Assembly (NCBI RefSeq): GCF_016427565.1
Contig: NZ_JAELXT010000002.1
Span: 333,023 to 397,022 of the forward strand
DNA from: Microvirga splendida
GTDB taxonomy: Bacteria; Pseudomonadota; Alphaproteobacteria; Rhizobiales; Beijerinckiaceae
Direction: 5' to 3'
DNA length: 64,000 nt
The position numbers and the translations under genes are program-made. Each line of letters begins with the position of its first letter. Positions within the stretch are counted from its first letter, which is position 1. Under the pieces are notes generated by a model that was not told where the DNA came from, searched no databases, and worked only from the letters and a program-made list of their open reading frames with translations. Below are positions 35,079 to 60,886 of this stretch, in pieces.

Positions 35079-35122
35079 GTTCTCATTTTGTTCTTGACAG
35101 CTGCCTTAAGCTCGGCTATATC
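35079..35122 (+). promoter_or_regulatory. SOS-box promoter upstream of the exo-lig side
   Basis: A perfect alphaproteobacterial LexA box, GTTC-TCATTTT-GTTC (35079-35093), directly abuts a strong sigma-70 promoter: TTGACA (35094-35099), 17 bases, TATATC (35117-35122). Transcription would start near 35129 and run towards exo and lig. LexA bound here would block the -35 region. Confidence 0.85.
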
Positions 35123-49305: not shown

Positions 49306-51495
49306 TCAGGCCTCAAGCCAGTTCCTGAGCCGGGACAGGCGCGGCTCCTCTTCCGAGCCGACGGCCTGGACGAGGGCGGCGCGGCTGCCGACGAGGATCA
49401 CCAGACGGCTTGCACGCGTCACCCCCGTATAGAGAAGCTTGCGCCGCAGCATCGAGACCTGCTGCAGGGCGACCGGAATGACCACGGCCGGATATTCGGA
49501 GCCCTGCGCCTTGTGGATCGTCACCGCGTAGGCGAGAGCCAACTCGTCGAGTTCCTGAAGGGAATAGACCACCAGCCTGTCGTCGAAAGCGACGGTGAGT
49601 TCGCCATGGTCGCGCCGCACCTCGCGCACGATGCCCACCTCGCCGTTATAGACATCGCGCTCGTAATCGTTGCGCACCTGCATGACCTTGTCGCCAGGCC
49701 CAAAACTCCAGCCTGCCCGGTGCAGGCTCTCGAGGCCCGGCGGATTGAAAAGCTGCTGCAGTTCTCCGTTCAGCATATGCGTGCCGAGCCGTCCACGGTT
49801 CATGGCGCACAGCACCTGCACGTCCCGCACCGGATCGAGGCCGAAGCGTCGCGGAATGCGGTCTCGGATCAGGATGGTCATCTTGGCCATGGCCTCGGCC
49901 GGCGTGTCGGCCTCGACGAAGTAGAAATCAGAATCCGGCTGATGCCCAAGATCCGGGACGAGCCCGCGGTTGATGGCATGAGCTGTCGTGATGATGCGGC
50001 TCTCCCGCTCCTGCCGGAACACTTCCCTCAGGTGCACCACCGGTACGGCATGGGATGCGATAATGTCGGACAGGATCTGCCCGGGGCCGATGGACGGCAG
50101 CTGGTCCACGTCGCCCACGAGCACGAGCGAGGCTTCGTCCGGCAAGGCGCGCAGCAGCGCGGCCATCAGGCGGATGTCGAGCATCGAGGCCTCGTCGACC
50201 ACGAGGAGATTGCAGTCGAGCGGCATCTTGGCATTGCGCCGGAAGCCGCCTTCAGAGGCCTCCAGCAGGCGGTGGACGGTCTTGGCCGGAAAGCCCGTGC
50301 TTTCCGACAGCCGCTTCGCAGCCCGCCCGGTCGGTGCACAGAGCGCAATCGTCAGCCCGTGCTGCGCGCACAGATGCGTCAGACTCCTGATCAGCGTCGT
50401 CTTGCCGACGCCGGGCCCGCCGGTGACGACGAGCACTTTCGAGCGGAAAGCCTTGGCCAGCGCCTCGCGCTGGCTCGGCGAATAGGACACGCCGATGGCG
50501 GCTTCGGCTTCTGCGATCACCTGCTCGCTGTCGAACCCGTTCCAGGGGTGCAGCCCCTGTGCGATCTCCTTCACGCGCTGGGCGATGAAGAGCTCGGCGC
50601 CGTAGAGGCCTTTCAGGAAGATGCTGCGGCACCCATCGAGTTCGTCGGCGATCAACTGGCCTGCCGCACATTGTGCATCGAGCACCGGCTTCAGTTCGGC
50701 TTCTGTTATTTCGAGCAGGCGGCTGGCCTGCCGCAGCAGTTCCTCGGCCGGCAAGCCGCAATGCCCTTCCCTCACGGCCTCGGAGAGGACCTGTGACAGA
50801 CCGGCCTGCAGCCTGATGGCGGCGGTGGGCTCCACATCGAGCTGCAGCGCCACCTGATCGGCGAGCGCGAACTCGAAGCCGGGGATGTCGAGGACGAGCC
50901 GGTAGGGATTGGCCTTGACGATGTCGATCGCCCCGACGCCATAGGCGCGGTAGATGCGCGTGAGCAGAAAGCCGCCGATGCCATGGGCGTTGAGGAAAGC
51001 TGCGATGTCCTTCAGCGCACGATGCTCGGCCCAGGCCTCGCCGATGCTGAGCGCCTTGGCCATCGCGATGCCATGCACGCGTGTCAGCTCGTGCGGCTTC
51101 GTCTCGATCACATCGAGGATGCGCGCGCCGAACGATGCGATGAGCCTCTGGGCAAGAGAGGGCCCGACGCCTTTCAGGAGGCCGGAGCCGAGAAAGCGCT
51201 GCAGGTCTTCCGCCGTGGTCGGCGCCGTGGTGACGAGTTCGCTCGCGCGGAACTGGACCCCGTGGTTGCGGTCGTGCAGCCAGCCGCCGCTTGCGTCCAC
51301 CACCTCGCCGATGGCGACCGACGGCGCATGACCTACGACGACAACGGGCTTGCGATGTCCGCGCGCTTTCACGCGCAGCACGCAGAAGCCGGTTTCATCG
51401 TTGTGGAACGTCACCCGCTCGATGGAGCCGACGAGATATTCGGAGAGGAGCAGCGCCTCCTGATCGGAAGCAGCCATGGCGGAGGATTTCGGCAT
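49306..51495 (-). CDS. RecD2-type ATP-dependent DNA helicase
   Basis: A 729-residue superfamily 1B helicase of the RecD2/TraA-like kind, without RecB/RecC partners. The N-terminal part has helix-hairpin-helix-like motifs (FLGSGLLKGVGPSLAQRLI, LTRVHGIAMAKALSI). Walker A is VVTGGPGVGKTTLIRSL near residue 355, then PTGRAAKRLSESTG, motif II LVVDEASMLD, motif III LVGDVDQLPSIGPGQ, and C-terminal VTIHKAQGSEYPAVV and YTGVTRASRLVIL. RecD2 unwinds DNA 5' to 3'. It follows the putative annealing-protein gene by 91 bases on the same strand, so it may share its SOS promoter. Confidence 0.93.
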   Translation of the reverse strand: MPKSSAMAASDQEALLLSEYLVGSIERVTFHNDETGFCVLRVKARGHRKPVVVVGHAPSVAIGEVVDASGGWLHDRNHGVQFRASELVTTAPTTAEDLQRFLGSGLLKGVGPSLAQRLIASFGARILDVIETKPHELTRVHGIAMAKALSIGEAWAEHRALKDIAAFLNAHGIGGFLLTRIYRAYGVGAIDIVKANPYRLVLDIPGFEFALADQVALQLDVEPTAAIRLQAGLSQVLSEAVREGHCGLPAEELLRQASRLLEITEAELKPVLDAQCAAGQLIADELDGCRSIFLKGLYGAELFIAQRVKEIAQGLHPWNGFDSEQVIAEAEAAIGVSYSPSQREALAKAFRSKVLVVTGGPGVGKTTLIRSLTHLCAQHGLTIALCAPTGRAAKRLSESTGFPAKTVHRLLEASEGGFRRNAKMPLDCNLLVVDEASMLDIRLMAALLRALPDEASLVLVGDVDQLPSIGPGQILSDIIASHAVPVVHLREVFRQERESRIITTAHAINRGLVPDLGHQPDSDFYFVEADTPAEAMAKMTILIRDRIPRRFGLDPVRDVQVLCAMNRGRLGTHMLNGELQQLFNPPGLESLHRAGWSFGPGDKVMQVRNDYERDVYNGEVGIVREVRRDHGELTVAFDDRLVVYSLQELDELALAYAVTIHKAQGSEYPAVVIPVALQQVSMLRRKLLYTGVTRASRLVILVGSRAALVQAVGSEEEPRLSRLRNWLEA

Positions 51496-51586: not shown

Positions 51587-52258
51587 TTAGGCCGCCTTCT
51601 TGGTCGGCCAGCCGAGTTCGACGAGCCGTGCCTTGGCATAATCGCGGATCTCGTCGCGGATGCCCTCCGGCAATTCGGCGAGCACCTTCTGCGTGTCGGC
51701 ATGGAGCATCAGGTCCGTGACCGCGTTGATGGTCTTGGCCTTCTTGATCTTCGCCCTCAGGTCGTCCTCGACCTTGCCGTCGGCGGCAGCGGCCTCGATC
51801 CTGCCCTTCTGCGGCTGGGTGTCGGTCTTCTCGAGCTCCACGTGCGGATCGGTGAAGCCCGGACGGCCCTGTTTGAACTCGTCCGCCTCTTCCTCGGAAT
51901 AGACATAGCCGTGCAGCTCGATGAGCTTGAGGATCACGCGGTCCTTCGCGCGCTTCTCGGCCATGGCATACACATAGGCTGCCTGCTTGCCCGAGACGCG
52001 GTAGTTCACGCCGATCAGCGCCTCGCCGATCGACCATTCGACCCGATCGCCCATGCGGCCGGTGACCTGGATCACTGCCTCGTCGCGCTCGGCGCGAATG
52101 ATCTTGGGCTCGTCGAAGACCACGTTGGCTTGGGCGGCGATGCGCTCAAGCGTCTTGTGGTAGACCACGGCCGTTCCCTGGACCCGCCAGACATTGCCGG
52201 CCATCGGTTCGCCGAACTTGGCCAGCACCTCGGAGATTTTCTTATCGGTCGTATTCAT
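51587..52258 (-). CDS. Putative single-strand annealing protein (Rad52/ERF-like), SOS-controlled
   Basis: A 223-residue protein. No exact family was recognised, but the core GTAVVYHKTLERIAAQANV, followed by strands VIQVTGRMGDRVEWSIGEA, then AAYVYAMAEKRAKDRVILKL and ELHGYVYSEEEAD, follows the pattern of Rad52/ERF/DdrA-type annealing proteins (beta sheet then a long helix with xxExRAxxRAxL). The C-terminal 70 residues form a separate helical part with many Lys/Glu. A perfect LexA box 75 bases upstream supports a DNA-repair role. Rad52-like function is inference; similar proteins occur in alphaproteobacterial phages. RBS AGGATCGAGG precedes the ATG. Confidence 0.55.
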   Translation of the reverse strand: MNTTDKKISEVLAKFGEPMAGNVWRVQGTAVVYHKTLERIAAQANVVFDEPKIIRAERDEAVIQVTGRMGDRVEWSIGEALIGVNYRVSGKQAAYVYAMAEKRAKDRVILKLIELHGYVYSEEEADEFKQGRPGFTDPHVELEKTDTQPQKGRIEAAAADGKVEDDLRAKIKKAKTINAVTDLMLHADTQKVLAELPEGIRDEIRDYAKARLVELGWPTKKAA

Positions 52259-52332
52259 CCTCGATCCTACCTTTTATCAGGGCCCGCACATCGGCTCACG
52301 CTCTTGTCGAAATCGTCTTCTGCGGCTGGCGT

Positions 52333-52347
52333 GTTCGTTTTTTGTTC
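52333..52347 (-). promoter_or_regulatory. LexA (SOS) box upstream of the annealing-protein gene
   Basis: GTTC-GTTTTTT-GTTC on the plus strand, a perfect GTTC-N7-GTTC site, 75 bases before the 52258 start. On the minus strand the -10-like GCTATAG overlaps the box. The rest of this 362-base divergent gap (52259-52620) is AT-rich and holds no gene. Confidence 0.85.
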
Positions 52348-52509
52348 TATAGCAAATTTCAGTTTCCAGGTCCAATTCGGGTACAGCACCCGTGACGTTT
52401 TATCTGATAAATATCAGCAACTTAATGAGTGTGCCATTTTGTCCCAATCGCCAGCTTCTTCTCTTCAGGTCACGAGCCCTGCTCAAGCGATCCGATGAAG
52501 CGTCATGAT

Positions 52510-52541
52510 TTGACCATATGCATCTTGTTCTATATATGTTC
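52510..52541 (+). promoter_or_regulatory. SOS-box promoter of the TnsA-like gene
   Basis: TTGACC (52510-52515), 17 bases, TATATG (52533-52538) form a good sigma-70 promoter; a perfect LexA box GTTC-TATATAT-GTTC (52527-52541) covers the -10. It lies 80 bases before the start at 52621, divergent from the box at 52333. Confidence 0.85.
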
Positions 52542-52620
52542 TCATCGTCAGAATGGCAAAAATCCGCTGGATCTCACGGACGCCTAACTGCCTGTCATAA
52601 CCGCCACCCTGGAGGACCGG

Positions 52621-53271
52621 ATGTCCGCGCAAGCGATCCTCGACCTTTCGGATCGACGCCCCGCCCGCCGTGGCGGCGCCCGCCGGGCTGCCAAGCGCCC
52701 GGCGACGCCCCTCACACGAAACGCCCTGGTCGCGGACTTCCTGGCGCTCTGCGAACTGGATGCGGATGTCGAGTCCCTGCGTGCACCCGCCGACCCGGCC
52801 ACCTTCGCCATCGGTGACGAGGCAATCGAGCATGTGGCCGATTTCGAGATCGTGCGCGACGGCTCGGCTTATCTGGTGGACGTGGTGACGGACGACGATC
52901 TTCTGATCCATCCCCTGCGCGCGGCTTCGATCCATGGCATCACCGCCGCCGACGGTCGCCCCTTCCTGATCGAGACGGCGGCAAGCATCCGGGCGGAGCC
53001 GCGCTTTACCGCCATGCGGCTGATCATGGCCTGCAAGCGCACGCCGGTGACGGCGGGCGACCGGGTGCGTATCCTGCACCAACTCGACGAACTCGGCACC
53101 ATGCGGCTCGTCGATTGCGCCAGCGCCGTCATGAACACGCAGGACGGTGTCGCGGCCGTTCTGGCGCTCGCCTGCGAGGGTTTGGTTGCGGTCGACATCA
53201 ACCGCCCGATCCTGCCCGAGACACAGGTGCGCCGGCGCCGCCTCCCCTTCGCAGACCCGTTTGCGTTTTAA
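52621..53271 (+). CDS. SOS-controlled protein of unknown function, TnsA-nuclease-like core
   Basis: A 216-residue protein. Residues 1-35 are basic (RRPARRGGARRAAKRP). The centre, AIEHVADFEIVRDGSAYLVD followed by VVTDDDL, recalls the nuclease fold of TnsA (H-x-PDF...liDvK), but the catalytic lysine position appears to be Val, so activity is uncertain. The C-terminal half (RILHQLDELGTMRLVDCASA, AVLALACEGLVAVDINRPI) looks like a winged-helix domain as in TnsA C-termini. GGAGG precedes the ATG. It has its own LexA-box promoter, and its stop overlaps that of the convergent phosphoesterase in TTAA. TnsA likeness is tentative. Confidence 0.6.
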   Translation: MSAQAILDLSDRRPARRGGARRAAKRPATPLTRNALVADFLALCELDADVESLRAPADPATFAIGDEAIEHVADFEIVRDGSAYLVDVVTDDDLLIHPLRAASIHGITAADGRPFLIETAASIRAEPRFTAMRLIMACKRTPVTAGDRVRILHQLDELGTMRLVDCASAVMNTQDGVAAVLALACEGLVAVDINRPILPETQVRRRRLPFADPFAF

Positions 53272-54269
53272 GACTGCGCCGCGTGACGCTCCACCGCCTC
53301 GCCCAGCAGCGAGCGTACGATGGCGCGCACGGCGTCCGAGGTGCTGTCGGCGGTAAACTTCGCCTCGATCTCGTCGCGGATGATCGAGCCGTCGCCGCTG
53401 CGCTTCAGCTCGGTTGAGGATTCTGCCTGAAGCAGGGTGACGAAGGCGCTCTCCACCTCGCGCGCCACCAGCGCCTCGTCGGCGGCGTCGACGACGCGTC
53501 CGGTGAGATCGAACACGTTGCTCTCGAAGGGCAGCGCCTGCGCTTCCAGTTCGCCGCTGCCATCCAGAACCCAGGCGCGCGGCACGTGATCCACGAGATC
53601 GACGGATTGGCGCGTGATGTTGCCGGGGTTGAGCCAGCGCGTGCGGCCCGCAAGAACGGCCTTCTGCGTCTTATGGATGTGCCCGTTGATCAGCACATCG
53701 CAGCCCTCGACCGCGAACGGCGGAACGGCACCGGGATAGCCCCCGTCGAAGGCGATATCGTGATGCGTGAACCAGGCCTGGAGATCGACACTGGTGAAAG
53801 AGCCGCGCGCATCGGTGGGAATGGCCTGGCCGTAGGGCGTCATGCCGACGCCGACCCGGCGGGTTCCGATCTCGAACTCGGCCACAGGCGCGGATGTCGC
53901 CACCACGTCGACCACATCGCAGAGACCCAGCAGCGCCAGCGAGTCGCTGTCGGTGAGCGTCGTGTGCTGGATGTCGTGGTTGCCCACGTTCACGAGGGGC
54001 CGGTGGCGAAAGCCTTTCAGCACGCGGATGAGCTGGTTCTTGAGCGCCACATCGGTCTCAACCGGACGGTCGAAGAGGTCGCCGAGAATGACAACGGCGA
54101 GCTGCCGCTCGTTGGCGATGGACACGCAGCGCTCCAGCTTGCCGAGCACGGCCTGAGGCCACACCGCATCCTTGCGCCGACCCGGACGCCGCGAGCCCAC
54201 ATGCGGGTCCCCGATCACGAGAATGCCGTTGCAGGCAAAAGAGGGAAGACGATCTCCGGTCAGGATCAT
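53268..54269 (-). CDS. SbcD/Mre11-like metallophosphoesterase
   Basis: A 333-residue calcineurin-like nuclease. Metal motifs: ILVIGDPHVGSRRPGR (D-x-H near residue 20), VILGDLFDRPVE, VNVGNHDIQHT and INGHIHKTQ. A beta-rich cap and a charged C-terminal part (VAREVESAFVTLLQAESSTE) follow, in place of the Mre11 capping domain. Its start overlaps the stop of the Rad50-like ATPase gene (ATGA), the typical pairing of SbcC-SbcD or phage gp46-gp47, but in the order ATPase then nuclease. It probably cuts or resects DNA ends together with that ATPase. Confidence 0.88.
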   Translation of the reverse strand: MILTGDRLPSFACNGILVIGDPHVGSRRPGRRKDAVWPQAVLGKLERCVSIANERQLAVVILGDLFDRPVETDVALKNQLIRVLKGFRHRPLVNVGNHDIQHTTLTDSDSLALLGLCDVVDVVATSAPVAEFEIGTRRVGVGMTPYGQAIPTDARGSFTSVDLQAWFTHHDIAFDGGYPGAVPPFAVEGCDVLINGHIHKTQKAVLAGRTRWLNPGNITRQSVDLVDHVPRAWVLDGSGELEAQALPFESNVFDLTGRVVDAADEALVAREVESAFVTLLQAESSTELKRSGDGSIIRDEIEAKFTADSTSDAVRAIVRSLLGEAVERHAAQS

Positions 54270-56083
54270 GCGGTGAGCCGCTCCGTGGGCGAATGGGCGT
54301 GGTGGTCGAGCAGGGTCTCAGGTCTAACGGGCGAACCGCAGGTGGGGCACAGCCCGCCGGTCTCCTCGACGAGGCGCGCCATCTCGGCCTGCAGGGATGT
54401 CAGCCCCTCGTCGACCTGAGCCATGCGGCTTCCGGCAATCCGGGAGGCTGCATGAAGATCGTTCATCCGCTTCAGGATATTTTGTGCCGAGGCGGTGTTT
54501 TCAAGGGCCGGCACGGCCTGCGGCAGGCCATGCAACGCGTCCAGCCGCGCTCGGGCACGCGTCAGATCGCGGCCGAGCTGCAGCACCTGCCGCCCGATGC
54601 GCTCACGCTCGCGGGCGCGCTCGACCGTACGGGTGAGATCGGCAAGCCGCTCCGCGGGAGGAAGCATCTCGGTAATGCGGGCGCGCGCCTCGGCCGTCGT
54701 CAGTCGCCGACGCGTCGTGGCAAGCTGCGCCGCATGCTTCTGCAGCTGCTCCAGCCGTGCCGCCTCCATGGTGAGATGCTCCGCCTGCCGGCGCGCAGCG
54801 GACAGCTTCTCCTTCAAAGGCTCGAGTTCGGCGAGCCCATCGAGCGTCTCGCTCAAAGCGATCAGCTCCCGCTCGCCGTTTCGCACGAGATCGTTGTCAC
54901 GGCGGCAGCGCTCACGGTGGATGACCAGCATGTCGCGGATATAGCCAGCCTCCTGGCCGATGGAGAGAACCGCAGAGCGGCGCGACGGCGTTTCGCCCAG
55001 CAGGAAAACGGGGAATTTCTGATGCGCGATGTGGACGTCGAGATCCTCGACCTTGCGGATGCGGATGAGATCGGCGACCCAATCCGGCACCGCGCGCCCA
55101 CCGGTCTCGTAGCGCATGCCCTGCGCCTCGACGACGGAGCCATCGGCCTCATGCAGGGACCAGATGTTGACAGGCGAGCGGCGCGGCTGGCGCGTGAAGC
55201 GCAAAAGGCGGTTTCCGGCGACGCCGATCTCCACCATGGCGGATTTCGCGCCGGCGCGCACGAGGCTGTCGCGGGCCTCGCCGTAGAACACCGCCCGCAG
55301 AGCACGGATGAAGGTGGACTTGCCGCGGTTGTTCGGCCCGATGAGCGCATTGACGCCGGGGCCGAGATGCAGCGTCGCATCCGTATAGGCCTGCACGTTG
55401 ACGAGGCGGATGAAGCGCAGCCCCGGCTGGGCATCGTCCCAAAGCTGGCCGGTGTCGGAGGACAGCACCTCGACGCCGGTGGCGGGCTCGCCGACGATGC
55501 GCGCGATATGAAACTTGCCGGAGAACTGCGACAGGTCATGATGCGAGACCGCAAGGCACTGCACGCCAAGGCGTGCCGCGCCGTCTTCCAGCACCGTGTA
55601 GAAGGACGACACGCGCTCCGGCGCGATCCAGCAATCCGCTTCGTCCAGCGCCAGGAAGCGCGCGACATCCGCCTTGACCACGGCGATCAGGCGCAGGGCC
55701 ATGCCGATGACGTTGGTGAGCGCGCCGCCATTGTCCTCCAGCACGTCCTCAAGCGAGCCGTCCGGGCGCCGCACGCAGATGTCGAGGGAGGCAAGGCCCC
55801 GCTCTGTCGACAGTTCCAGAGCCACAGGCTTCTCGCCGGGCAGCACCTCCTGCACGAGGGCCGTCAGCAGCGTCTCGAAGGCCGCAAGGCTGCGGCGGCT
55901 CGCCGAGCCATGAACAGCCTCGATGAAGGCTTCCACCTCGTCTTTGACCGCAAGGCGGCCCTTGGCGAATTCGATCTCGCGCGTCAGCTCGTTGACCCGC
56001 GTGCGGATAGCATCGCGCCGCCCTTCGAGGCGCGCGAGCGATGCCTCAGCGCGGCCGACATCGTGAGTGGCAGAGGCCAACAT
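54266..56083 (-). CDS. Circularly permuted Rad50/SbcC-like ATPase
   Basis: A 605-residue ABC/SMC-type ATPase with its halves exchanged. Residues about 1-60 are coiled coil. The C-lobe motifs come first: signature-like LEDNGGALTNVIGMALRLIA (about 115), Walker B RFLALDEADCW (about 143) and H-loop LAVSHHDLS (about 178). The N-lobe follows: FIRLVNVQAYTDATL, Walker A ALIGPNNRGKSTFIRAL (about 248) and the Q-loop region KFPVFLLGETPSRR (about 355). A long coiled coil ends at LCPTCGSPV (about 579), equivalent to half of a zinc hook. In normal Rad50/SbcC the order is Walker A, coil, hook, coil, signature, Walker B. It starts by TGATG overlap with the small coiled-coil gene and ends overlapping the nuclease gene. 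Confidence 0.87.
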   Translation of the reverse strand: MLASATHDVGRAEASLARLEGRRDAIRTRVNELTREIEFAKGRLAVKDEVEAFIEAVHGSASRRSLAAFETLLTALVQEVLPGEKPVALELSTERGLASLDICVRRPDGSLEDVLEDNGGALTNVIGMALRLIAVVKADVARFLALDEADCWIAPERVSSFYTVLEDGAARLGVQCLAVSHHDLSQFSGKFHIARIVGEPATGVEVLSSDTGQLWDDAQPGLRFIRLVNVQAYTDATLHLGPGVNALIGPNNRGKSTFIRALRAVFYGEARDSLVRAGAKSAMVEIGVAGNRLLRFTRQPRRSPVNIWSLHEADGSVVEAQGMRYETGGRAVPDWVADLIRIRKVEDLDVHIAHQKFPVFLLGETPSRRSAVLSIGQEAGYIRDMLVIHRERCRRDNDLVRNGERELIALSETLDGLAELEPLKEKLSAARRQAEHLTMEAARLEQLQKHAAQLATTRRRLTTAEARARITEMLPPAERLADLTRTVERARERERIGRQVLQLGRDLTRARARLDALHGLPQAVPALENTASAQNILKRMNDLHAASRIAGSRMAQVDEGLTSLQAEMARLVEETGGLCPTCGSPVRPETLLDHHAHSPTERLTA

Positions 56084-56379
56084 CAACGCTCGTCTCCAAG
56101 TTGCCTGAGGCGCGTCTCGACTTCGCGCAGGGCTACGCCGAACTCCTCCGCGAGCTTGGCGTTTCGTGCCTGGGCCTCGTCGATCAAGCCTTGGATCTGC
56201 GCCTCGTCGTCGGTTCCGAGCTCTGCCTTGGCGAGTGCGCGCGCCTCTTCGAGTTCACGCGCCAGACGCTCGACCTCGCCCTCGGCCCTGATCCGCTCGG
56301 CGCGCAATTTATCGAAGGTCTTGCGCATCTCCTCCAGGCGGCGGAGCTGGTCTGTTTCGAGGCGTGACAGGCTGGTCAT
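56083..56379 (-). CDS. Small coiled-coil protein coupled to the permuted ATPase
   Basis: A 98-residue protein that is almost entirely heptad-rich helix (LETDQLRRLEEMRKTFDKL, AEGEVERLARELEEARALAK, LAEEFGVALREVETRLRQLG), with a short break near 55 (GTDDEAQ). No family was recognised. Its stop TGA shares a base with the ATPase ATG (TGATG), so it is the first gene of a three-gene operon (coil, ATPase, nuclease). It could supply a missing coiled-coil strand or an assembly partner for the permuted ATPase; this is inference. Confidence 0.8.
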   Translation of the reverse strand: MTSLSRLETDQLRRLEEMRKTFDKLRAERIRAEGEVERLARELEEARALAKAELGTDDEAQIQGLIDEAQARNAKLAEEFGVALREVETRLRQLGDER

Positions 56380-56557
56380 GGAATCGCGGCTCCGCTGCAG
56401 GTGAATGGTCGAGCTTCAGTTATCGTCAGCGCTATTTCGTCGCAACGACTTTGCCTCTTTTTGGTCTGGATCGGGGACGATGTCTTCAATCCTGGCACCC
56501 GACCCTCCACATAGTATCCGTTACTCCAAGATTACAGTCTCAAACAGCGGACTTTGC

Positions 56558-56597
56558 TTGACACAGAGCCCGCCGAGGCTATGTTCTTGTTTTGTTC
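56558..56597 (+). promoter_or_regulatory. SOS-box promoter of the three-gene small-protein operon
   Basis: TTGACA (56558-56563), 16 bases, TATGTT (56580-56585), with a perfect LexA box GTTC-TTGTTTT-GTTC (56583-56597) overlapping the -10. It lies in the 293-base divergent gap between the coiled-coil gene and the gene at 56673. The rest of the gap is AT-rich and carries no gene; a separate promoter for the minus-strand operon was not identified. Confidence 0.85.
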
Positions 56598-56672
56598 ACA
56601 TCATCTGTATGCGTCGTGGATGTGACCTCATTAGGGCGGTGCTGAACGGCCCTTGGCATCAAGGATCTCGTG

Positions 56673-57278
56673 ATGAGCGTCATGACGGAAGAGCGGCCGA
56701 TTTTCGAGAACGAGGAATGGCTCGTGAGCGAGAGCGGCCTCGAGCACAAGCGGACCGGCTATTTCATCGACCGCGACAGCCTCGGCCAGCGGCGCGAGGA
56801 CGGGCTGTGGTCGTGGCCGCTGCACATGGCGGAGAAGAGCTGGTGCGGCATGCAGCCGTTCTCGGAAGCCTTCACCTGCGCGCTCTCGGTTTTCGGCGTG
56901 AGTGCGGGCGTGGAGCTGGCGCAGAGCCTGAAGGTCGCGCGCTGCGAAGTCTCGCCCTGGCCGAAGGCCGCGCGGGCCCATGCTGGCTCCGTTCCGGCGG
57001 TCCCGCGCCCCTTGCATTCCGAGGGCCGAAACCCCATTTTATTGAAGCCGCGCCCTTCGCATAAACCCTTGAATAGCCAAGGTTTTCAGAGCCCGGCCGA
57101 AGCCTGGCGCATTCGCACCGAATTGGGTGCGCGCCTCGTCCTGAAGAACCCGCGTCAACGTTCCGAACGCCTGAACCCGGCCCGTGAAGCCAGTCCCTCC
57201 TGGCAGGCGCCGCGCCGGATTCGAAAGACCGGAACGAAGCTCGTTCGGCTGCTGCAGGCAGCCTGGAACATACGGTGA
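56673..57278 (+). CDS. Unknown protein, first gene of an SOS-controlled operon
   Basis: A 201-residue protein not recognised. The first 95 residues look folded and acidic/aromatic (ENEEWLVSESGLEHKRTGYF, DGLWSWPLHMAEKSWCGMQP, FTCALSVFGVSAGVELAQSL); the last 105 are basic, Pro/Arg-rich and low in hydrophobic residues, probably disordered and DNA- or RNA-contacting. Start ATG 56673; a GTG directly before it is also possible. The LexA-box promoter 75 bases upstream implies induction by DNA damage. The next gene starts six bases after its stop. Confidence 0.65.
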   Translation: MSVMTEERPIFENEEWLVSESGLEHKRTGYFIDRDSLGQRREDGLWSWPLHMAEKSWCGMQPFSEAFTCALSVFGVSAGVELAQSLKVARCEVSPWPKAARAHAGSVPAVPRPLHSEGRNPILLKPRPSHKPLNSQGFQSPAEAWRIRTELGARLVLKNPRQRSERLNPAREASPSWQAPRRIRKTGTKLVRLLQAAWNIR

Positions 57279-57283
57279 GATCA

Positions 57284-57697
57284 ATGCCGAACTTTGGGCT
57301 CGAAGAGATCATGCGCACCGGCGCAAGCGCTTTTCAGGGCGACATCTCCGGTGCGGAGAATCCGGCGCCTGAAACGGCGGACGAATTCGCGCAGCATGTG
57401 ATCGAGACGATCTGCCATGCCAGCGTGACGCCCGCCATCGGACGCCGCACGTTCGAGCGCTGCATGCGCGCGCTGAGCGTCGGCTCCACGGTGCGCGTGG
57501 GCTTTCGCCACCCGGCGAAGGCCGAGGCCATCGATAGGGTCTGGCGCGAGCGTGAGCGCCTGTTCGACGAATACACGGCAAGCCCGGACAAGCTGCGCTT
57601 TCTCGCAACGCTGCCCTGGATCGGCCCCGTGACGAAACACTCCCTGGCCCGCCGGCTCGGCATCCATGCCGCGCATGGAGAGCGGGCCGTTGCCTGA
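57284..57697 (+). CDS. Small protein with helix-hairpin-helix-like C-terminus
   Basis: A 137-residue protein, second in the SOS operon. Residues 20-110 are helical (ETADEFAQHVIETICHASV, AKAEAIDRVWRERERLFDEY). The segment LATLPWIGPVTKHSLARRLG resembles a helix-hairpin-helix DNA-binding motif as in HhH-GPD glycosylases, where a continuing catalytic half would follow; here the protein ends 12 residues later (HAAHGERAVA), so it may be a truncated relative. A GTG at 57275 overlapping the previous stop is an alternative start. Confidence 0.65.
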   Translation: MPNFGLEEIMRTGASAFQGDISGAENPAPETADEFAQHVIETICHASVTPAIGRRTFERCMRALSVGSTVRVGFRHPAKAEAIDRVWRERERLFDEYTASPDKLRFLATLPWIGPVTKHSLARRLGIHAAHGERAVA

Positions 57698-57725
57698 AAC
57701 GAACAACAAGAAGAGGTATCAACCC

Positions 57726-58001
57726 ATGGCTAAGGTTCGCGCAAGCGATGTCGGCTTCTGCGTTGTCGACGGCAACGCCAATGTCATCGCAGACAATCTC
57801 GTCCACCGCATCCGCGAAGCCGCCGCGGATATGGAAAGTCAGGTCAACCGGCTCTACCGGGGACGCAGGGCCTACGATCTCGAGGTGGGCACCAAGGACG
57901 ATCTCGAGAAGGCCATCGAGCAGCTCACCTACATGGCGCGCACCCTGCGCGAAGTGAAGGACGAGCAATCGAAGGTGGTCTATCTCCAGGCGGCCGAGTA
58001 A
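57726..58001 (+). CDS. Unknown 91-residue protein, last gene of the SOS operon
   Basis: A short mostly helical protein: MAKVRASDVGFCVVDGNANV leads into helices with REAAADMESQVNRLYRGRRA and DDLEKAIEQLTYMARTLREV. AAGAGG lies upstream of the ATG. No family was recognised. It is followed 17 bases later by a perfect intrinsic terminator that ends the operon begun at 56673. Confidence 0.7.
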   Translation: MAKVRASDVGFCVVDGNANVIADNLVHRIREAAADMESQVNRLYRGRRAYDLEVGTKDDLEKAIEQLTYMARTLREVKDEQSKVVYLQAAE

Positions 58002-58018
58002 ATTCACCATTGCCTTCG

Positions 58019-58049
58019 AATAGCGGTGATCCCCATCACCGCTATTTTT
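58019..58049 (+). terminator. Perfect rho-independent terminator
   Basis: AATAGCGGTGAT (58019-58030), a CCCC loop, and ATCACCGCTATT (58035-58046) form a 12-base perfect stem followed by a T5 run. It ends the SOS operon, 31 bases before the convergent methyltransferase stop. Confidence 0.95.
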
Positions 58050-58079
58050 GTATGCGCTGGCGCTCTGAGCTGATCGCCG

Positions 58080-58889
58080 TCACGCTTTGACGGCGCTGAT
58101 GAACAGCACAAGAGGCGCATGCTGATACCAGCGGTTCAGCCATGCATGCTCGCGCGCCAGCTCCTCCCTTGGCCGCGGCTCCTCCATCTTCACGATCCGT
58201 AATCCCGCTTCGCTGACGGCGTTCACGTAGTCGGAGAGCGTCAGTGGAAAGCGCGGCACCTCGAAAGGCTCGTCATACGCAACGAGCTTGGCGGTCTGGG
58301 GACGCCGGCCGAACCGCCAGCGCTCGATGAAGGGCGTTCTCTCGAAATAGCGGCCGACACGCAGGCCCTGGTAGGATCCCTCCTCGTCCGTCAGCCACTG
58401 GAGGGCAGGAGTGATGAAGCAGGGGTGCAGAACGCTGAAGCACAGGCTCCCGCCGGGCTTCAGAACCCGGCAAGCCTCACGCATGGCAGACGGAAAGTCC
58501 GGGCCATCCATGAGCGCCATGGTGGACACGGCGCAGTCGAACTGTTCGTCGTCGAAAGGCGAGAGCTTGCTGAAGGAGCCAAGCTCATAAGCGATGCCGA
58601 GAGGCTCCTCCGCCTCCGTCTGGCGGGCACGCTTGATCATCTCAGGAGAGAGGTCGATCCCGGTCATGATTCCGCCGCGCTGCGCGAAGCGGCGCGTGTT
58701 GGAGCCTTCGCCGCAGCCCAGATCGATGACCTGCTGCCCCGCGATGGACGGCATGAAGTCCAGAAAGGCCGGAAGCGTATAAAGCTCGCGGTAGAAGTCG
58801 AAGCCGGACCGCACCTCTTCGGTCCAAAGGGCGGCATTGCGATCCCACGCAGCGGCGACAGCCGCTTCGTTCAAGGTCTCATCGTTCAT
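58080..58889 (-). CDS. Class I SAM-dependent methyltransferase
   Basis: A 269-residue methyltransferase. SAM motif I is VIDLGCGEGSNTRRFAQRGG near residue 55, then MTGIDLSPEMIKRAR, post-I acid, FDCAVSTMALMDGPDF (motif II) and ACRVLKPGGSLCFSVLHPCF (motif III), the UbiE/Coq5-like pattern for small-molecule substrates. Start 58889 (MNDETLNEA) follows GGAG. The long C-terminal part with FERTPFIERWRFG is typical of a group of proteobacterial methyltransferases of unknown substrate. Confidence 0.88.
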   Translation of the reverse strand: MNDETLNEAAVAAAWDRNAALWTEEVRSGFDFYRELYTLPAFLDFMPSIAGQQVIDLGCGEGSNTRRFAQRGGIMTGIDLSPEMIKRARQTEAEEPLGIAYELGSFSKLSPFDDEQFDCAVSTMALMDGPDFPSAMREACRVLKPGGSLCFSVLHPCFITPALQWLTDEEGSYQGLRVGRYFERTPFIERWRFGRRPQTAKLVAYDEPFEVPRFPLTLSDYVNAVSEAGLRIVKMEEPRPREELAREHAWLNRWYQHAPLVLFISAVKA

Positions 58890-58987
58890 GGCAGGCTCCG
58901 GAGGCTCAGCGTGGCTGCTCCTGTTTAGCCCATTCGCCCCGTCCCCGACATCGGGAGGCAATCAACTCGTCTCTTGTGTTTCACGTG

Positions 58988-59002
58988 GAACAAATATAGA
59001 AC
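58988..59002 (+). promoter_or_regulatory. LexA (SOS) box upstream of ssb
   Basis: GAAC-AAATATA-GAAC, a perfect box read on the minus strand as GTTC-N7-GTTC, 105 bases before the ssb start and 99 bases before the divergent methyltransferase start. TATAGA inside the box is a likely -10 for ssb. Confidence 0.85.
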
Positions 59003-59106
59003 AATAGGTGATGCCCACCTTGGGGCAGGAATGTGCAACCGACCTGAAAACGTGCGGCATTCGTGATGCCCCAGCCGTTCAGGAGAGATGAAATGGAGAG
59101 GCCATC

Positions 59107-59607
59107 ATGGCTGGATCTGTGAACAAGGTGATATTGGTGGGCAACCTGGGTCGCGACCCTGAGGTCCGCCGTCTGGGCAGCGGGGATCCGGTGGTGAACC
59201 TGCGGATTGCCACCTCCGAGACCTGGAAGGACAAGGCCACGGGCGAGCGCAAGGAGAAGACCGAGTGGCACTCGGTGGTGATCTTCAACGAGAACCTGGC
59301 CCGTGTGGCCGAGCAGTACCTGAAGAAGGGTTCCAAGGTGTACCTGGAGGGCCAGCTGCAGACCCGCAAGTGGACCGACCAGCAGGGCGTGGAGAAGTAC
59401 TCGACCGAGGTGGTGCTGCAGCGGTTCCGCGGTGAGCTGACGATCCTGGACAGCCGCGGCGGCGGTGGCGCCTCCGAGTACAGCGACGAGGAGCAGGGCC
59501 AGATCGCCAGAGGCGGCGACTTCGGACGGTCCTCGCCGATGGAGCGCAGGCCCGAACCGGCGGGCGCTTCCCGCCACAGCGACTTCGACGACGACATCCC
59601 GTTCTGA
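59107..59607 (+). CDS. ssb: Single-stranded DNA-binding protein
   Basis: A 166-residue SSB. The OB-fold occupies residues 1-115 ([58 protein letters not shown]), followed by a Gly/Glu-rich linker and the acidic tip DDDIPF that binds repair proteins. It coats single-stranded DNA in replication and repair. The LexA box upstream makes it part of the same regulon as the genes at 51.6-58 kb. Confidence 0.96.
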
Positions 59608-59696: not shown

Positions 59697-60611
59697 TCAA
59701 ACGTCGGCAGAGGCTTTCCGCGCCTCGTATCGCGCGCGTTGCATGCGCTCCACCTCGCGCAGCTTGCGCGCCCTCTCCCGCAGCTCCTCGCGGCTGGCCC
59801 ACCACCAGCCTCGGACCGCGCGAAGCTCAGGGTCGTCCTCCGCACGCGACGGCCTGGTGCGATAAACCTCATGCAGGGTCGGCATGCGCCAGCGGGCCCA
59901 GACGTAGCCGGATTGATCGGTCCGCATGTGCGGATACAGATCGGCCACTTCAGCATCCTGAATAGGTTCGCCTTCGATATCCTCGAAGACCACGATGCCC
60001 CAGCGATCGGTCGACACCGGAAAGCCCAACGGCGGCAGGTCGTCTCCCGGCACGGGATAGCGCCTGCGGCGGCGCTCCGCCTGAACCCGGCCCGACGGCT
60101 CGGACACGTGCGCTTTCTGCTCCTCGCGCCGCTTCTGGCGGGCGGCGGGTTCGTTGCGCCGCGCCGCCTCCTCGATGTCCTCCCAGCGCGCTTTCAGGTC
60201 CTCGTAGGATCGGAACGGCACCCGCCAGATGCGCTCCTCGGGATCCCAGGCGGCCCAGGGAATGGAGCGAAGCGCCTCCACGATGGTGCGGGAATAGGGC
60301 GTGCGCACCCTCAGGTCGTCTGCGATCGTGAGATAAGGGCTCTCCAGGGGCTCGAACGCGAAAGCATCCCGTCCCTTCTCATCGGCGTGCCGATCCAGGT
60401 TCTGCAGTTCCTGCGCCACCCAGACATCGAGGCGCTGGACTGCCGTGGTGCCGGGCACGAACCAGTGCTGCTCGGCTGCGCGCCATCGGGCCCGCGGGAA
60501 GGCCTCACGAAAGCGCCGCACCAGATCCCGGTCGTAAGGAAAAACCGCACAAGCCCCCGGTTTCTCCTCGTCATCGGACGGCATGACCCGGAATGCGGAC
60601 GCAATCTCCAT
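59697..60611 (-). CDS. Protein with two HARP-like repeats
   Basis: A 304-residue protein. Two tandem modules of about 40 residues share the HARP (HepA-related, SMARCAL1-type) pattern: FPYDRDLVRRFREAFPRARW then HWFVPG (about 24-60), and TPYSRTIVEALRSIPWAAWD then IWRVPFRSYEDLKARW (about 105-145). A basic linker follows (RQKRREEQKAHVSE), then a second folded part (WGIVVFEDIEGEPIQDAEVA, YPHMRTDQSGYVWARWRM) and a charged C-terminal helix. No helicase motifs are present. HARP domains help annealing helicases bind DNA; here the gene lies convergent with ssb. Start 60611, or GTG 60641. Confidence 0.65.
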   Translation of the reverse strand: MEIASAFRVMPSDDEEKPGACAVFPYDRDLVRRFREAFPRARWRAAEQHWFVPGTTAVQRLDVWVAQELQNLDRHADEKGRDAFAFEPLESPYLTIADDLRVRTPYSRTIVEALRSIPWAAWDPEERIWRVPFRSYEDLKARWEDIEEAARRNEPAARQKRREEQKAHVSEPSGRVQAERRRRRYPVPGDDLPPLGFPVSTDRWGIVVFEDIEGEPIQDAEVADLYPHMRTDQSGYVWARWRMPTLHEVYRTRPSRAEDDPELRAVRGWWWASREELRERARKLREVERMQRARYEARKASADV

Positions 60612-60886
60612 GGAGGACCGGCTCTTCACATCATGATGCACGACACCCTGAAGTCACAACAGCCGTACAGGGGATTTGATCCCGCCCCCCATTCAAGGCC
60701 TCTGCCCGGGGCCCGGAGCAAGAATGAGTCACACCCAAAATTCAGCTTTCAGGAAGCAATCTCGTGTATTGTCCTGGCCGATCTCCTGAAATTTCTCAAA
60801 ATGATACAGTATTTATTCAATCGTTCTGATCGGGACCGGGCCCTTTCCTCTCCGGCAGAACTCCGTCCTTGAGGGCCCGGAAGACC
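60612..60886. other. Divergent promoter region between HARP-like and GGDEF-EAL genes
   Basis: No gene is visible in these 275 bases. The stretch 60785-60830 is AT-rich and holds CTGAAATTTCT-N6-GATACAG (60786-60809), close to the string at 5713-5730 before the RpiR gene, and the likely promoter for the GGDEF-EAL gene. Confidence 0.5.

Follow-up and report, generated by a model that had tools for sequence, protein, structure and literature searches.

What kind of DNA-handling system is encoded at positions 51587-59607 of a 64,000-nucleotide stretch (the window) of the Microvirga splendida genome, which totals 5.2 Mb and belongs to a genus of soil bacteria? The original prediction read this locus as a damage-induced pathway for end processing and strand annealing. 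We consider it quite probable that it is a LexA-controlled break-repair module, built from a circularly permuted Rad50 (cpRad50), an Mre11/SbcD-type metallophosphoesterase (MPE), a small coiled-coil protein (coil) and a phage-type, predicted Rad52-like annealing protein (ssap). The earlier idea stands in part, namely the clustering, the conserved boxes, the ATPase and nuclease and the likely annealing protein, while the TnsA label is unsupported and RecD2 and ssb drop out as core genes. The central genes are as follows.

51587-52258, minus strand: ssap, phage-type, likely single-strand annealing protein, 223 aa
53268-54269, minus strand: MPE, 333 aa (Pfam Metallophos, 1.1e-6)
54266-56083, minus strand: cpRad50, circularly permuted Rad50/SbcC-type ATPase, 605 aa
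56083-56379, minus strand: coil, 98 aa, first gene of the operon

In the usual description of Rad50 and SMC proteins, a single chain passes up one arm, turns at a hook or hinge and comes back down. The ATPase of the window is a circularly permuted Rad50. Its signature (G119-G120), Walker B (D147-E148) and H-loop (H181) come first, Walker A (G249-S256) and the Q-loop (Q355) second, and a putative CxxC zinc hook motif (C579/C582) lies near the C-terminus; residues 1-212 make up the C-lobe and residues 214-375 the N-lobe. All the parts of a Rad50-type ATP-binding cassette (ABC) head, namely Walker A, signature, Walker B, Q-loop and H-loop, are therefore present, but the one-chain order of N-lobe, coil, hook, coil and C-lobe is not, and for that reason cpRad50 falls outside SbcC in the way that family is defined. 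In a profile search of the PDB, residues 127-207 matched a chain that we take to be a Rad50 C-half, and residues 225-265 matched residues 4-44 of Rad50. The AlphaFold model has a predicted local distance difference test (pLDDT) score of 81.5. The permuted order recurs in 25/25 aligned homologs, 8 of them on plasmids, with a replicon assigned for only a minority of the genome rows outside Microvirga; G120, D147, E148, H181, G249, G254, K255, Q355, C579 and C582 are invariant in all 25. An ordinary SbcCD operon was considered and is ruled out by the lobe order. The pair of ATPase and nuclease that had been predicted is there and is SbcCD-like, but its ATPase is no ordinary SbcC, and the permutation had been missed.

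Its partners are encoded next to it. The MPE and cpRad50 genes overlap through an ATGA junction, and the motifs DPH, GDLFD, GNHD, HHD and NGHIH are retained in most of 17 MPE rows. The MPE scores as a metallophosphoesterase in Pfam (29.7 against a cut-off of 21.5) and falls short of the NCBIfam SbcD model TIGR00619 (14.4 against 77.65 bits). MPE and cpRad50 are likely to carry out end processing of the Mre11-Rad50 type. A small coil-type open reading frame (ORF) stands directly upstream of cpRad50 in all 11 distant loci examined, and tblastn with the coil itself gave a match in only 1 of 8 plasmid loci. The coil is likely to be the distal part of the descending Rad50 arm, supplied as a separate chain. 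Compared with Mre11-Rad50 and SbcD-SbcC, the system shares the ABC head motifs, the CxxC hook motif and the adjacent gene for an Mre11-type phosphoesterase, but here the lobes are swapped, the chain ends at the hook, the coil is a separate protein and LexA-type boxes precede the genes.

Where could such an order come from? When cpRad50 was compared with 50,697 phage records at E 1e-3, the sole match was Bacillus phage vB_BboS-125 (two records), whose Rad50 is divided over three genes, first an N-half with GGICPLC at its end, then a 78-aa coil and last a C-half. The same order of N-half, coil and C-half holds in 27/27 viral loci found through the C-half, many of them near-identical and one of them vB_BboS-125 itself; all 27 have a 78-aa coil gene ahead of the C-half, and CPxC lies within the last 45 residues of every N-half. 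Microcystis phage Mvi-JY20 has a metallophosphoesterase gene between the N-half and the coil, with the C-half last. In PHROG the N-half corresponds to phrog_16465 and the C-half to phrog_15167, and on cpRad50 these families match at 223-495 and 3-184, respectively, the reverse of the phage order. We ran profiles of the two cpRad50 lobes against 6 of the 27 viral loci, vB_BboS-125, Mvi-JY20, Magritte (C-lobe only), the JWF N-lobe, T4 gp46 and E. coli SbcC. On the phage halves the C-lobe profile scored 42-76 bits and the N-lobe profile 39-73 bits; the JWF N-lobe gave 27 bits, T4 gp46 6.3 and 11.9 bits, and E. coli SbcC no match.

The phage split Rad50 (phrog_16465, phrog_18563 and phrog_15167, as in vB_BboS-125 and Mvi-JY20) thus has the same three pieces as the bacterial set, a hook-ended N-half and a coil upstream of the C-half, but the phages begin with the N-half and keep the two halves as separate genes, whereas the bacterial set opens with the coil and has its C-half fused to the N-half. 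Setting the phage order N, MPE, coil, C against the bacterial order coil, C-N, MPE therefore implies a rotation in which C and N became fused. Most likely, the head genes would descend from a split Rad50 operon of a phage or megaplasmid with the cyclic order N-half, MPE, coil, C-half, and the operon may have undergone a rotation that fused the C-half to the N-half, for instance through a tandem duplication followed by loss, the route we favour. Judged from sequence, this appears to be a traceable case of circular permutation at the level of an operon, by splitting, rotation and fusion. The fused, permuted form did not turn up on any viral contig in pattern searches of limited reach. In Magritte, Tunturi_5 and a 485-kb uncultured phage a C-half is present, with no N-half match in the stretch examined, nor at Magritte's far end. 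A phage derivation, which had also been proposed, finds support for the annealing protein and is likely for the ATPase halves.

Homologs of cpRad50 occur in 23 plasmid records of PLSDB, all predicted to be non-mobilizable, and many of the carriers are megaplasmids. A tree of 25 rows places Microvirga, Methylobacterium, Rhizobiales YIM 77505 and Antarcticirhabdus in one group (94/96, internally open) with a Bosea plasmid as its neighbour (97/92) and the other plasmid rows outside; the deeper joins are unsure because several branches are long. We think it fairly probable that a Rad50 family was cut at the hook and re-joined at the head through rotation of a phage-type split Mre11-Rad50 operon, is carried on megaplasmids across proteobacteria, and was taken up into the Microvirga chromosome, where it forms part of a LexA-driven break-repair system resembling Rad50-Mre11-Rad52, its arm closed by a second, separate coil chain. 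A family whose chain is interrupted at the hook and joined at the head would allow the continuity of the arm to be probed as a carrier of signals between hook and head. Within the open PMC literature (including the parts seen of PMC3175470, PMC6473078, PMC10853773 and PMC7824862), a scope that most subscription papers and bioRxiv lie outside, we found no natural circularly permuted Rad50 or SbcC. The Mimivirus-type Mre11/Rad50 fusions are similar as sporadic, plasmid- and virus-linked variants of the pair, but join an N-terminal Mre11 to a C-terminal Rad50, unlike cpRad50, and in the passages seen of that paper 'circularly permuted' concerns the T4 genome only (PMC3175470).

The remaining genes of the locus and its flanks are these.

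49306-51495, minus strand: recD2, RecD2 helicase (TIGR01448, 791 bits, cut-off 500), a neighbour outside the core
52621-53271, plus strand: tnsA-labelled gene, 216 aa, conserved, earlier described as TnsA-like
56670-57278, plus strand: sp1, 202 aa, with a conserved N-terminal domain of ~70 aa
57275-57697, plus strand: sp2, 140 aa, likely helix-hairpin-helix protein
57666-58001, plus strand: sp3, small protein, likely start at the ATG at 57726
59107-59607, plus strand: ssb (PF00436, 1.9e-37), a neighbour outside the core with its own box

The cluster is stable across Microvirga, the genus that also gives the nearest protein relatives of this genome. Both cpRad50 and ssap occur in 43 of 48 Microvirga genomes, our own included, and are missing from the same five, so that their presence and absence agree in 48/48; one of the 43 cpRad50 matches (genome G233) is only a 64-residue piece. 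Loci were fetched from 41 of the 42 other positive genomes (L104-L144), G233 being left out, and in 41/41 the genes ssap, tnsA-labelled, MPE, cpRad50, coil, sp1, sp2 and sp3 keep the same order and strands. The cpRad50 frames are free of stops at all places listed in the genus search, dN/dS (the ratio of nonsynonymous to synonymous substitution) is far below 1 for all ten genes of the window set, indicating purifying selection, and Microvirga sp. VF16, whose genome is complete, has the locus on its chromosome. A scan of named genomes gave 53 loci, whose Microvirga rows are mostly the same genomes and were not recounted. Among the 12 Methylobacterium loci, cpRad50, coil and sp1 are present in 12, MPE in 9, ssap and the tnsA-labelled gene in 7, and sp2 and sp3 in none; four of the five loci lacking ssap reach a contig edge, the fifth (L189) has none within 8 kb, and with enough flank the ssap/tnsA-labelled pair adjoins the ATPase operon in 7/8. 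Antarcticirhabdus and a metagenome-assembled genome of the Aurantimonadaceae carry the set without sp2 and sp3, with the ssap/tnsA pair inverted and recD2 present, and YIM 77505 has only the coil-cpRad50-MPE trio and sp1. The genes are therefore clustered rather than scattered, as had been foreseen. A check for neighbourhoods conserved across the Hyphomicrobiales had been proposed as well; the cluster recurs in Microvirga and, in shorter form, in Methylobacterium and Aurantimonadaceae, but is rare order-wide. In a sample of 199 genomes, our own included, just one of the 198 others gave a strong cpRad50 match, weaker rows being mostly frames of SMC size (~1,150-1,180 aa), and the set is for this reason a trait of a lineage, not of the order.

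Two further arrangements of cpRad50 were seen. The genome itself holds, on another contig, a second, diverged coil-cpRad50-MPE set (L022; G000:C33, 6878-10725) at 31-37 percent identity, whose ATPase of 816-826 aa has a longer arm than that of the window; by eye, its residues ~400-790 look like repeats of ~40 residues, broken at prolines, whose number differs from homolog to homolog. In Sabulicella and Roseococcus (L192, L193), an ssb that has a perfect box and a distant relative of RecD2 each lie ~4 kb away from cpRad50 and MPE, surroundings that independently echo the Microvirga neighbourhood.

The regulatory evidence comes from GTTC-N7-GTTC, the alphaproteobacterial LexA motif (PMC3323433). 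Four perfect boxes had been noted, and each is found exactly at its place.

52333-52347, plus strand: LexA-type box of the ssap unit
52527-52541, plus strand: LexA-type box of the tnsA-labelled unit
56583-56597, plus strand: LexA-type box shared by the divergent coil-cpRad50-MPE and sp1-3 operons
58988-59002, minus strand: LexA-type box of ssb

Counting both strands, the window contains 6 perfect boxes; dinucleotide shuffles, 100 in number, averaged 1.20, and 0/100 reached 6. The distances to the predicted starts are ~75 bp for ssap, ~80 bp for the tnsA-labelled gene and ~105 bp for ssb, and the shared box lies ~73 bp from sp1 and ~204 bp from coil. A perfect box is found upstream of ssap, of the tnsA-labelled gene and of coil/sp1 in 41/41 other Microvirga loci each, and before ssb in 35 of the 36 whose fetched stretch includes ssb. 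The same holds for ssap and the tnsA-labelled gene in 7/7 Methylobacterium loci that carry them, for coil/sp1 in 12/12, and for all three units in 2/2 Aurantimonadaceae loci. The GTTC halves are constant and the seven spacer bases are not: Microvirga shows 11 spacer versions at coil/sp1 and 28 within 400 bp of ssap, a count that includes the neighbouring tnsA box. The 41 Microvirga loci hold 174 perfect boxes, compared with 11.4 in mononucleotide shuffles and 41 occurrences of the reversed pattern, from which it follows that the background is not nil. Among 20 further box-bearing stretches of the genome, chosen for AT-rich spacers, boxes lie close before one imuA-like gene and two recA genes (L254 on G000:C16 and L267 on G000:C24, a perfect box each). 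Others adjoin genes without a known SOS link, such as those for an RTX-repeat or a radical-SAM protein, so a box alone proves nothing. The conserved operator that marks an alphaproteobacterial LexA regulon is present, and the units of the cluster are likely to be under LexA control. Elsewhere in the window, a perfect box at 35079-35093 lies ~340 bp before an ORF for a ligase-associated DNA damage response exonuclease (TIGR04122); the identical 15-mer has at least 4 copies in the genome.

The annealing protein links the locus to phages. Relatives of ssap occur at 80 or more viral-contig loci and in 51 phage records, and in Bradyrhizobium phage BDU-MI-1 one comes right after the gene for a YqaJ exonuclease. 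The predicted model (pLDDT 80.7) has the annealing proteins Rad52, Mgm101, Sak and Red-beta as its best-listed structural matches. It differs from them in sequence, with ~6-15 percent identity to solved annealing chains and no Pfam match for the window protein; one phage relative has a sub-threshold RecT match. The protein is likely to be an annealing protein of a phage family with a predicted Rad52/Sak/Mgm101-like fold. The earlier call of an annealing protein is accordingly kept as likely and phage-type, its Rad52-like predicted fold resting on middling structural scores. A relative also lies on a 1.57 Mb plasmid of Methylobacterium aquaticum, and ssap is a candidate annealing protein native to the Methylobacteriaceae for genetics in such hosts. 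On one ssap-bearing viral contig (L028) a relative of sp3 is also within the fetched stretch. Database copies of ssap named 'trna delta-isopentenylpyrophosphate transferase' are likely to be a propagated misannotation.

Taken together, the set is likely to work like Mre11-Rad50 plus Rad52, a bacterial analogue under SOS-type control. The coil would fill the missing distal stretch of the descending arm and, together with C-lobe/N-lobe and hook, would reconstitute one Rad50. A pair of these heads and two Mre11-type subunits could bind broken ends, keep them tethered and trim them; complementary single strands exposed by resection would be paired by the annealing protein, and SSB, plus RecD2 where present, may help this step. 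On DNA damage, LexA would be cleaved and all units would rise together.

Several observations weigh against this reading. No ssap is found near cpRad50 in 8/8 plasmid loci (L001-L008), YIM 77505, Sabulicella, Roseococcus, Acidithiobacillus and one Methylobacterium. The structural matches of ssap are all below Z 8, no Foldseek match reaches E 1e-3, and a dsRBD scores 7.3 against its model; YqaJ lies near 5, and ssb relatives near 7, of the best 80 viral ssap loci. The MPE motifs are degenerate on a Pseudomonas plasmid, and in Vibrio, Alteromonas and Aeromonas the ORF after cpRad50 is unrecognised as an MPE by tblastn. The arm after the N-lobe ranges from ~200 to >400 residues among homologs while the coil of L022, which has the longest arm, is still 101 aa, so full-length antiparallel pairing of the arm misfits some homologs. 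V-ATPase and SMC coiled-coil rows score equal to Rad50 in the VIA list. An unfused intermediate of coil, C-half and N-half was not found, and the route of rotation is our reconstruction.

The absence of ssap from the plasmid loci and YIM 77505 would suit a set in which cpRad50, MPE and coil replace the housekeeping SbcCD of the lineage, cleaving hairpins and protein-blocked ends, with the annealing protein an unrelated passenger. No SbcC or SbcD over the cut-off was found in the 48 Microvirga genomes, as that idea would have it, in searches whose controls passed in only 1/14 genomes for SbcC and 8/14 for SbcD; the SbcC result is supporting only because of its weak control, this low power also counts against our interpretation, and 12 of the 48 genomes hold another SbcD-like protein of ~395-472 aa. 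We regard a replacement of this kind as unlikely, since ssap and cpRad50 are present or absent together throughout the 48 genomes and lie close together, each with LexA-type boxes, in three groups. An anti-phage or anti-plasmid defence of the SMC/Rad50 kind, like Lamassu or Wadjet, is suggested by a match of the PADLOC LmuB model to the ATPase (5.3e-10) and by the megaplasmid carriers. That match is restricted to residues 238-588 and leaves the C-lobe uncovered, and PADLOC listed no Lamassu partner among the other nine proteins, LmuA not having been sought elsewhere. The set, moreover, is found in 43/48 genomes in one order, and its setting is not variable but linked to LexA boxes and recombination genes, which makes defence improbable. 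Still harder to credit is the idea that the locus is what remains of a decaying replication-recombination block from an integrated phage or plasmid, still expressed but unused by the host: the phage-type ssap, the phage split Rad50 relatives and the plasmid-borne homologs that surround the set in the tree are in its favour, yet the frames are intact, the boxes conserved and all ten genes under purifying selection, and no significant phage structural family appeared among the ten window proteins scanned. The LexA-controlled break-repair module accommodates these observations best.

The other genes add less to the picture. The TnsA-like label found no support, as Pfam, NCBIfam and PDB sequence searches (PDB up to E 10) gave no notable match, and a D74...D87-x-V stretch lacks the Lys expected in a D..(E/D)xK nuclease core, the motif that we presume for TnsA. 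The protein is conserved along with the cluster. A distant relative stands before an AAA/M41 ATPase in Rhizobium tumorigenes and another ~1 kb before an AAA ATPase on a plasmid of Microvirga VF16, with no Tn7 genes annotated in the stretches examined around either, and a profile search of the family returned no informative name among the best 120 of 274 rows. A distant paralog (35 percent) lies elsewhere in the genome (L242; G000:C60:2406-2999). Matches to sp1 were found in 41/41 Microvirga, 12/12 Methylobacterium and 2/2 Aurantimonadaceae loci, and to sp2 and sp3 solely in Microvirga clusters. In M. massiliensis sp1 is fused to sp2, and in M. pudoricolor sp3 is fused to sp2. A PADLOC OGG match (1.8e-6, residues 74-138) and a HHH_5 score of 19.5 bits for the sp1-sp2 fusion, under the cut-off of 27, suggest that sp2 is likely a helix-hairpin-helix protein.

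The original prediction had also placed ssb in the set and RecD2 directly downstream. In the window ssb has its own box and RecD2 adjoins, but both are neighbours in only part of the set. As core genes they were rejected: ssb is within the fetched stretch of 36/41 Microvirga loci and near none of the 12 Methylobacterium loci, and recD2, which has no box within 300 bp upstream (0/27 loci), is adjacent in just 27/41 Microvirga, 2/2 Aurantimonadaceae and 0/12 Methylobacterium loci. The protein adjoining ssb in the window (59697-60641, minus strand) shows a weak HARP-domain match (Pfam PF07443, 22 bits against a cut-off of 25).

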